From a virus: a DNA stretch of 23,722 bases. The DNA lies in the IMG/VR virus record IMGVR_UViG_3300020472_000167, positions 1 to 23,722 of that record. One strand, written 5' to 3'. The notes under the pieces are model-generated. The model did not search any database and was not told where the DNA came from. It saw only the letters and a list, made by a program, of their open reading frames with translations. Made by a program: the position numbers and the translations under genes. Positions 19,100 to 20,721 of the stretch are shown here, one piece after another (positions within the stretch are counted from its first letter, which is position 1; every line of letters starts with the position of its first letter).

Positions 19100-19563
19100 T
19101 GGAACCGCCTATCTTTCCTTCTATAAATCTACCAACTCAGATTCTACCTGAACCTCCTAAACTCCCTGAGCCTATCCTAAACGTCCCTACAGCGGACGTT
19201 CCTAGCTATTTACCCATGATACTGCCTCCAGAGGGTTTAACACCTCCTATAGGCGTTCCTAGGGAGGGTGAGGAGGACATAAGGGAGGAGCCAGAGGCAC
19301 AGAAGGAAAACCCTTTACCAGAAGTACGCAAGATAAATATCCCCTGGACAGACGTAGAAATACCAGTTCCAAGAGAGGAGATTGTAGCAACTGCGGCAAC
19401 TACTGCTGCAGTTTCTGTAGTAGCCACTTTAACGGCTACTTCTATGTTTAACTATCTAGTTAAGATATTAAAACCTGTATTTATGCAGGTAGTAAAACGT
19501 ATTCAAAAGAAACTTGGAAAAAACGGAGACACCAAAATCGAAGAACGTCCTAGCGAAACTTAA
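19099..19563 (+). CDS. Proline-rich protein with one membrane segment, unknown function
   Basis: A 154-residue protein in three parts. First comes a Pro-rich region (about residues 1-60, many PP and LPEP steps). An acidic stretch follows, leading to a short strand-like KINIPWTDVEIPVPREEI. Then comes an Ala/Thr/Val hydrophobic helix (about 97-115) followed by a very basic tail (KILKPVFMQVVKRIQKKLGK). The basic residues after the helix suggest the tail is cytoplasmic and the Pro-rich part lies outside. I recall similar proteins in cyanophages without a known role. A lysis accessory or virion membrane component are both possible. It overlaps the preceding gene by one base and the following one by 50. 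Confidence 0.7.
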   Translation: MEPPIFPSINLPTQILPEPPKLPEPILNVPTADVPSYLPMILPPEGLTPPIGVPREGEEDIREEPEAQKENPLPEVRKINIPWTDVEIPVPREEIVATAATTAAVSVVATLTATSMFNYLVKILKPVFMQVVKRIQKKLGKNGDTKIEERPSET

Positions 19564-19789
19564 GGAAGGACTAGATGACAAGGAAGAGCAACTAGAGATC
19601 CTATCTACATTTGTTAGATTAGGTGTAGTTGTATGGGCAGGCTTTATTATCAGCCTTAATTACGTTGAAATACCCGGATTAGGAGAGCAGACACCCAAAG
19701 ATATAACCTTTATAGCCAGTATTTTTACTGGTACACTGGCAACCTTCGGCATTCAACCTTCTAACAGAAATGGCAAAAAAGATGAATAA
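19514..19789 (+). CDS. Small two-helix membrane protein, holin candidate
   Basis: A 91-residue protein with a charged N-terminal region (about 1-28), two hydrophobic segments (about 30-48, VRLGVVVWAGFIISL, and 65-80, FIASIFTGTLATFG) and a polar basic end. Size, two-helix topology and position downstream of the fibre gene match the T7 gene 17.5 (class II holin) slot; no sequence motif proves it. The only plausible start is TTG 19514, which overlaps the previous gene by 50 bases. No ATG or GTG lies in frame before the first helix. The stop overlaps the next gene by up to 20 bases. Confidence 0.65.
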   Translation: MEKTETPKSKNVLAKLKEGLDDKEEQLEILSTFVRLGVVVWAGFIISLNYVEIPGLGEQTPKDITFIASIFTGTLATFGIQPSNRNGKKDE

Positions 19790-20141
19790 ACTATGGCTAA
19801 TTCCACTTCTTCTACTCATTCCTTCAGCAGCAAGGGCAAATCAAGTATCACCTCAGTTCACCCAAGGATCAATGCAAGCTACGACAATTACGACACAAGT
19901 AATAACAGAAGTCGTAGATCAAGAAATATTTGGTGGTACTTACAACAGTTGGTCAGGAACCAACGTAATACCCAGTGGGAACATAGTAGACCCACAAACA
20001 AGTTACACAGTACACACAGCAGGAGAGCAGTTTCAGATAGAGACTGTAACACGTCCAGCAGGTGTAGTAGAGCAGATCGACATCGATCGAAGTATTACAA
20101 CAAACTCCACTACTACCTCGCTTTCAGTCTTCTCGCAGTAA
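19770..20141 (+). CDS. Exported protein with signal peptide, unknown function
   Basis: A 123-residue protein opening with a clear signal peptide (LWLIPLLLLIPSAARA, probable cleavage after ARA at residue 23). The mature part is Thr/Gln/Ser-rich with repeated short strands and ends SLSVFSQ. I recognise this protein type from cyanophage late regions (TRPAGVVEQ, DRSITT), always without a function. An alternative start at ATG 19782 would give 119 residues and keep the signal peptide. No lipobox Cys is present, so it is not an Rz1-type lipoprotein. The -1 frame is open under the whole gene and encodes, in its last 50 bases, the signal peptide-like start of the next protein. Confidence 0.72.
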   Translation: MAKKMNKLWLIPLLLLIPSAARANQVSPQFTQGSMQATTITTQVITEVVDQEIFGGTYNSWSGTNVIPSGNIVDPQTSYTVHTAGEQFQIETVTRPAGVVEQIDIDRSITTNSTTTSLSVFSQ

Positions 20142-20149
20142 ACCCTGTA

Positions 20150-20605
20150 ATGGCTGATGATGTATATAACACAGCAGCTCCTGAGTCGACTGCAACTGGC
20201 AACGTGACGAACCAAGCAGTGCAGTTCCAGAACAACGGTGCTCCTTCTAGGCAGCACTATGGAGGTGGAATCGTTTGTAACGGTTCTACTTTAACTTTAA
20301 CGCCTTTCTACATGGGGAATGATACTATTCCTATGGATCCAGATAGTTACGTAACAAGTAACAACTGGGGAGGGCAACTTAGCTTTATGGTCCCTTTAGA
20401 CTTCTCTACTGTTAGACGTTGTAAATCTATAGCTAAACGGCAAGAAGAGAAGCTAAGATTAGATTATGAATTAGTAAGAGCGCTTAAATGTGCAGAATTA
20501 CAACAGAAAGGGTTTACATTTAGACCTGGTTCTCGTGTAGAGCATCTATGTAATGATGTTGTACCGATAGCATTATTAAACAAACAAACAACACAAACAC
20601 CATGA
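20150..20605 (+). CDS. Probable periplasmic protein with four Cys; true start unclear
   Basis: From ATG 20150 the product is 151 residues (ADDVYNTAAPES near the N terminus). The middle has a YGGGIVCNG strand region, then a helical charged segment (about 93-120, Lys/Arg/Glu-rich, between Cys residues), ending near HLCND. Four Cys in all suggest disulfides outside the cytoplasm. Directly upstream, the same frame encodes YYLAFSLLAVNPVMA, a good signal-peptide core whose Met and Ala are the first two codons of the ORF. Yet there is no NTG or ATN codon before it for many codons; the frame stays open back to ATG 19793, where it is only a Ser/Arg/Asn-rich shadow of the preceding gene. Options are start at 20150 without export, an unusual start codon, a frameshift fusion, or a lost start. 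The stop overlaps the next ATG (ATGA). Confidence 0.68.
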   Translation: MADDVYNTAAPESTATGNVTNQAVQFQNNGAPSRQHYGGGIVCNGSTLTLTPFYMGNDTIPMDPDSYVTSNNWGGQLSFMVPLDFSTVRRCKSIAKRQEEKLRLDYELVRALKCAELQQKGFTFRPGSRVEHLCNDVVPIALLNKQTTQTP

Positions 20606-20721
20606 GTACATTATCTAGACTACGTGAAGAATCAGCTAAGAAAGCGGCCGAAGCGGCTGCTAAGCCTGCTAAGAAAGCGGCACCAAAAGCAACCAAGAAA
20701 ACACCTAAAGAGACTAAGTAA
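20602..20721 (+). CDS. 39-residue Lys/Ala-rich basic peptide (histone H1-tail-like)
   Basis: Short ORF linked by ATGA to the previous gene and by TAATG to the next, which supports translation. The N terminus (MSTLSRLREESAKKAAEAAA) should be helical. The rest is a Lys/Ala/Pro/Thr tail (KPAKKAAPKATKK, then TPKETK) with 11 Lys in total, similar in composition to histone H1 tails and bacterial Hc1-type proteins. It lies shortly before the terminase genes, so a DNA-binding or charge-neutralising role is conceivable but inferred from composition alone. Confidence 0.7.
   Translation: MSTLSRLREESAKKAAEAAAKPAKKAAPKATKKTPKETK

Follow-up and report, generated by a model that had tools for sequence, protein, structure and literature searches.

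A putative cyanophage exported-protein gene that most likely starts deep within its upstream neighbor

The window analyzed here, a stretch of viral DNA 23,722 nucleotides long, poses the question of where a protein begins when its signal peptide seems to have no start codon. Upstream of ATG 20150, the frame of that codon reads KYYNKLHYYLAFSLLAVNPVMA-DD, and this is the -1 frame relative to the preceding open reading frame (19770-20141), whose end reads SLSVFSQ; both points were made in the original prediction and both are present in the sequence. We agree with that prediction that this looks like the signal region of an exported protein with no start nearby, and its question of where the homologues start was an apt one. 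Upstream of the signal core, the frame is free of ATG, GTG, and TTG for 49 codons. The peptide had been described as lacking a start codon in front of it, but this is true for those 49 codons only: beyond them the frame, which is open throughout, contains TTG 19949 and then ATG 19793, 101 codons upstream of the KYYNK stretch. Since the frame is open back to ATG 19793, the second gene (B) most likely occupies 19793-20605, and as a single open reading frame of this extent it would overlap the preceding gene (A) by up to 349 nt, instead of the roughly 50 bases first supposed. The features of the locus, as we read them, are as follows.

19514..19789, plus strand: upstream gene DUF6450 (PF20048), an open reading frame with a Pfam DUF6450 match (E 1.5e-29) and phrog_2714; stop TAA at 19787-19789.
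19782..20141, plus strand: gene A, with an N-terminal signal peptide (MNKLWLIPLLLLIPSAARA) and a beta-rich domain; phrog_650, weak DUF6322.
19793..20605, plus strand: gene B, most likely extent, 270 codons in the -1 frame of A; based on the open reading frame, a clade-wide ATG, and the codon-shuffle test.
19793..20141, plus strand: probable dual-coding region of 349 nt shared by A and B; based on the open reading frames, the start tally, and the codon shuffle.
19793..20095, plus strand: predicted N-terminal extension of B, 101 codons, basic and hydrophilic by composition, in the second frame inside A; it adds hardly any synonymous constraint to A.
19949..19951, plus strand: TTG in the B frame, 63 codons before the A stop; a rival, less likely B start, absent in clade members L003 and L006.
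20096..20155, plus strand: predicted B signal-peptide core (KYYNKLHYYLAFSLLAVNPVMA), with predicted cleavage after Ala121 (VMA-DD); based on hydropathy and the AxA-type site in relatives.
20156..20602, plus strand: predicted mature B, 149 aa; phrog_1755 and phrog_848, four conserved Cys, a long helix near the C terminus.

The product of the upstream gene is presumably holin-like, judging from its hydrophobic profile. In profile searches, gene A matched phrog_650 (E 2.4e-32), and its score against DUF6322 (28.6 bits) was under the Pfam gathering score of 30.6; gene B matched phrog_1755 (E 5.9e-49) and phrog_848 (E 7.5e-43). ATG 19770 is an alternative in-frame start for gene A (giving the open reading frame 19770-20141); the A start common to the window clade is the ATG 8 to 11 nt before the B ATG, hence 19782 in the window. 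Starts and stop follow one another as A ATG 19782, DUF6450 TAA 19787-19789, and B ATG 19793, the last lying 3 nt past the DUF6450 stop and 11 nt past the A ATG. At the other end of the locus, a 39-codon open reading frame at 20602-20721 (plus strand) overlaps the B stop by ATGA; it reads MSTLSRLREESAKKAAEAAAKPAKKAAPK... and is Lys/Ala/Pro rich, with a histone-H1-like composition.

Relatives of B occurred in 450 of 50,697 phage records, nearly all of them from Synechococcus or Prochlorococcus phages, and the A/B pair was present in T7-like as well as T4-like cyanophages. Five scans of viral contigs yielded loci L001-L080 and L089-L379. The B core lay in the -1 frame of A at 340 of 384 loci and differed at 44; ten of the 340 were dropped for a contig edge or N, which left 330. 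A scan of the +1 frame covered 45 loci (the 44 and L210), most of which formed a +1 group; in one of them no A stop was found, and L378, in which B has a separate ATG start and a layout with no A, was excluded. Start counts exclude L378, contig-edge loci, and six window-like loci in which the B frame continued past the contig end. Groups were set by the end of A: group I comprises the window-like podoviruses, group III the S-H38-like phages, and group IV the Syn9-like cyanomyoviruses. A further group, typified by P-SCSP1d, has B in the +1 frame of A with a start 12 to 18 codons before the A stop; such a start was found in 32 of 35 distinct loci (the other three being contig-edge) and was ATG in 28 of the 32. 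The signal region is more than a product of chance, as shown by the number of records with a relative of B and by an AxA-type site 3' of the A stop in 258 of the 259 distinct junctions (all but that of L342).

All 282 distinct relatives (148/148 in group I, 66/66 in group III, and 68/68 in group IV) had an in-frame ATG, GTG, or TTG at least 14 codons before the A stop in an open B frame, a tally that covers loci with a visible upstream B-frame stop. The place of the start varied with the clade. In group III the B ATG was always 20 codons before the A stop (position -20), and in group IV it was at 54 codons (60/68) or 56 codons (6/68). The start classes of group I lay about 115, 63, 36, and 21 codons before the A stop, with candidate starts at both -36 and -21 in the P-SSP7-like group. 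Homologues with an ordinary ATG, which the original prediction named as evidence against its reading, were found in part: other clades have an ATG 16 to 21 codons before the A stop, but the window clade starts further upstream.

We compared these starts with a null in which the synonymous codons of A were permuted within each gene, keeping the A protein and its codon usage, in representatives less than 85% identical. In group I, a mean of 69 of 86 representatives (about 80%; minimum of 62 in 300 shuffles) had no B start after shuffling, compared with 0 observed; the corresponding values were 21/37 in group III and 33/42 in group IV, again with 0 observed in each. An open B frame of 63 codons or more was observed in 78% of cases, compared with 4% after shuffling. 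Because the permutation takes no account of common descent, these figures are not probabilities. The result for the window by itself is modest: in 92 of 5,000 synonymous shuffles of A, the B frame also stayed open as far as a start at this position. The A+1 frame, used as a control, showed no excess of starts; it was poorer in open starts than its shuffles, with 79/86 representatives lacking a start in group I (null, 55) and 33/37 in group III (null, 14), which looks as if competing starts were avoided.

All 22 members of the window clade had a B ATG at the equivalent place, which falls 8 or 11 nt past the A start and 3 to 7 nt past the DUF6450 stop; in the other classes, the A ATG mostly overlaps the DUF6450 stop as ATGA (130/138). 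Residue four or five of A is Trp in this clade (once Cys), in each case preserving the B ATG. On this evidence of conserved starts and open frames, B is very probably an ordinary phage protein, either secreted or anchored in the membrane, with a gene that begins deep within A, in the -1 frame of A, the start in the window being ATG 19793. The main competitor within the same frame is TTG 19949, 63 codons before the A stop, which would shorten the precursor by 52 residues. A large sister group has ATG as its start at the corresponding position (TCA before Trp in 81 of 84 distinct A genes), and the TTG is present in the window. However, the clade does not maintain this site: it holds no start codon in L003 and L006, and the preceding Ser codon reads AGT or AGC in 14 of the 22 members; all 22 keep the ATG equivalent to 19793. 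We therefore regard initiation at the TTG as unlikely.

Selection for the B start left marks on A in several classes. The B ATG is usually formed where A has Trp (TGG) and the codon before it ends in A. For the -63 class, the Ser codon before the conserved Trp was TCA in 81 of 82 cases, against a background share of 0.32 for Ser codons ending in A, while the same Ser site ended in A in 3/17 of the window class and 0/7 of the -36 class, neither of which uses -63. Similarly, the preceding codon was ACA in 59/59 of group III with its -20 start (background, 0.36), and the preceding Ser codons were TCA in 41/41 of group IV. Synonymous change in A fell to an observed/expected ratio of 0.60 at codons 61 to 69 (start -63), 0.66 at codons 55 to 63 (start -54), and 0.47 at codons 19 to 27 (start -20); in the -36 class the ratio lay between 0.58 and 0.90 in the final 39 codons and mostly exceeded 1 further upstream. 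The window clade had a dip of 0.68 at codons 115 to 123, which coincides with A's own start and so cannot be credited to B. The ratio stayed close to 1 within the -63 class extensions and was near expectation in several groups, so the amino acids of the extension would be hardly constrained. The extension is hydrophilic. Its basicity exceeds what A would dictate in the -63 (9.9 versus 7.6), -54, -36, and -20 classes, but not in the window clade (12.4 versus a null of 13.3). Taken at the level of codons and reading frames, these comparisons demonstrate that the open frame is conserved, that the start is conserved at clade-specific positions, and that selection has acted at those positions. The shuffle and the synonymous constraint together point to two genuine coding frames on shared DNA, as in a same-strand, out-of-phase overlapping pair, and an independent start for the second gene was found at 282/282 loci and in 23/23 named records.

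The B start also appears to have moved repeatedly in evolution, at least several times within the family. On a tree of 131 B bodies, in which L078 was placed by hand in the -63 class, the six start classes needed 12 changes, compared with a minimum of 5 and with 74.6 for shuffled labels. Two members of the -63 clade, L128 and L137, have a stop in the B frame between -63 and the signal and an ATG at -36 instead, and they are possible natural start relocations.

A different explanation is a programmed -1 ribosomal frameshift near the end of A that would fuse A to B, with the hydrophobic core inside the fusion. It would fit the position of B in the -1 frame of A, the nearly fixed position of the A stop relative to the core, and the lack of a start near the core in the window. 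However, in distinct sequences scanned from 45 to 7 codons before the A stop, an X XXY YYZ heptamer in the phase of A was found in 0/148 window-like and 0/63 S-H38-like loci, and in 6/66 cyanomyovirus loci, all as GGGTTTA. No such heptamer occurs in the A gene of the window, the original prediction having seen none near the junction, and no fixed conserved slip site was found in the aligned A/B junctions. In addition, every relative has a B start of its own, selected at different places in each clade; two clades have an ATG just before the signal; and in one clade B lies in the +1 frame and has an ATG or TTG of its own. There is also a topological objection. A second hydrophobic segment behind a signal peptide places the downstream part on the wrong side for signal peptidase, and this would be the fate of B in a fusion that begins with the signal peptide of A. 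Hence, with no slippery heptamer and with independent starts, a frameshift is unnecessary; neither a conserved heptamer nor a second frame devoid of its own start, the marks of a -1 frameshift cassette, was found. The frameshift linking two exported proteins, as originally suggested, is very unlikely. The broader idea that the signal is startless in all relatives and is reached by frameshifting was overturned by the tally of open frames and starts.

Alternatively, B could start at ATG 20150 or further downstream and be cytosolic, the signal-like stretch being a by-product of the Ser/Thr-rich end of A. Fourteen of the 23 named records do place B 3' of the A stop, and the hydrophobic residues of B follow in part from the TTSLSVFSQ of A read in the -1 frame. 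However, ATG 20150 is absent in most relatives, and one clade encodes a standard signal with its ATG in another frame. The by-product reading is rejected because the cleavage region after the A stop, where A imposes nothing, is conserved in nearly every junction, and this explanation is highly improbable. Finally, the 49 codons without ATG, GTG, or TTG in the window could suggest non-AUG initiation near the core, or that mutation or a sequencing error removed the start, but the chance of this is negligible, given that the near-core codons vary freely (ATG, ACA, GTG, AAG, AAT, GCG, or GAT at -21 among relatives) and that eight close relatives have the same layout as the window, with the upstream ATG conserved instead. 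A non-AUG start near the core was rejected, as no codon position is common to the relatives. Of the two remaining original suggestions, an unusual start was right as to position and wrong as to codon, which is ATG in the window; for a lost start, sequencing error is excluded by the hundreds of relatives with the same layout, while the evolutionary displacement of a signal-proximal start fits the data.

For B initiated within A, export is suggested by the region that follows the extension. The most hydrophobic 13-residue stretch of the B frame is LAFSLLAVNPVMA (Kyte-Doolittle mean, 1.85), and a hydrophobic core followed by an AxA-type site, the arrangement of a type I signal peptide, was found. 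Downstream of the signal, 327 of 328 sequences have four cysteines, and the remaining one has five. The AxA-type sites and the four cysteines point to export of B. The length from start to cleavage site ranged from 24 to 132 residues, with class medians of 27, 30, 42, 66, 69, and 121; it was 24 to 37 residues in the S-H38-like group, 27 and 42 in the P-SSP7-like group, and had medians of 69 and 121 in two others. The +1-frame clade has a standard signal of 23 to 25 residues, starting with an ATG. Type I signal peptides have a short n-region and total about 20 to 35 residues; one of 121 residues would be extreme, so B may keep the hydrophobic segment as a membrane anchor instead of having it cleaved. 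Extended signal peptides, for example those of autotransporters, have basic residues added N-terminally to a hydrophobic core of the ordinary kind. B resembles them in having a basic extension before the core, but differs in that its presequence varies from 24 to 132 residues among relatives and is dictated largely by gene A.

We propose that ribosomes ending the DUF6450 gene at TAA 19787-19789 would face two starts in two frames, the A ATG at 19782 overlapping that stop and the B ATG 3 nt beyond it. Reinitiation or independent initiation at the B ATG would give a 270-aa precursor consisting of about 101 hydrophilic, basic residues, the signal core, and an AxA-type site; export and cleavage after Ala121 would then leave a 149-aa protein with four cysteines. 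Related phages would reach the same signal core from starts 20, 21, 36, 54, or 63 codons before the A stop or, in one clade, from the other frame of A. Reinitiation, export, and cleavage are what we infer from this arrangement, and our claim goes no further than that B is exported or anchored in the membrane and that it is coexpressed with A and the DUF6450 gene through initiation that is shared or adjacent. A more specific version for the window clade, in which one stop serves two starts in two frames, ribosomes are split between the two genes, and the 121-residue presequence of B is set by gene A rather than by the function of B, is possible but somewhat doubtful.

The arrangement can be compared with known systems. 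The Rz/Rz1 spanins are two exported proteins from overlapping frames, one partner being a lipoprotein with a lipobox Cys. By analogy, A and B would both be exported, their frames overlap, and a lysis-like gene lies nearby. However, A has a signal peptide of the cleavable type, the T4-like cyanophages carry A/B outside any lysis cassette, and no lipobox Cys of the spanin kind was found in A or B, the signal region of A having no Cys and the cysteines of B lying in the mature domain. Structure models were weak (B, pLDDT 59.7 and pTM 0.37; A, pLDDT 78.4 and pTM 0.33). In the model of A (19782-20141), two strands of 23 to 24 residues form a long beta hairpin, and A may oligomerize. Foldseek returned for A a phage tail protein (2.3e-4, with a TM of 0.17) followed by beta-pore proteins, which is not usable, and for B nothing under 0.001. 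In a viral structure library, A matched mainly unnamed or uncharacterized proteins, and a sequence search of solved structures gave no match for A and only chance-level matches for B.

According to the available text of PMC3887535, same-strand (unidirectional) overlapping genes arise when a lost start is replaced by one within the upstream gene. The A/B pair is like the overlaps described there in being on the same strand and out of phase, with the downstream gene starting further upstream, but unlike them in that the overlap spans most of A, the start has shifted several times or more in a single family, and the newly gained N terminus precedes a signal peptide. In the available text of the cyanophage literature on frameshifts, overlaps, signal peptides, and ribosome profiling, the A/B pair or its overlap is not discussed, and neither protein is named in the available text of the virion proteomics studies PMC3037559, PMC13002823, PMC10575957, and PMC4646655.

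All 23 named records fitted the B start proposed here, 12 of them having been examined after the idea was formed. GenBank annotations of B are inconsistent across phages: B is annotated at the proposed start in six of the 23 (S-SM2, Syn9, ACG-2014b, P-GSP1, NATL1A-7, and MED4-213), 3' of the A stop in 14, and is missing in three (S-PRM1, S-WAM2, and MedDCM-S45-C4). GenBank records (Syn9 gp165 / T4-GC 235 and NATL1A-7 gp165) already have B at this start, 54, 96 (S-SM2), and 120 codons before the A stop. The records of NATL1A-7 (L387) and ACG-2014b (L384) give B from a far-upstream start and omit gene A, the mirror image of the usual error. Where B is annotated after the A stop, its signal peptide is cut off, and because the start has apparently moved repeatedly inside A, many genome annotations would place B wrongly.

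These results carry a warning: when no start is found close to a signal peptide, a frameshift does not have to be the cause. The B family also offers a data set on how a start migrates inside a neighboring gene and on how long an N region can be tolerated before a signal core. If the reading proposed for the window clade is true, the family would be a natural series, from 24 to 132 residues, of a start drifting away from its signal peptide with export kept.
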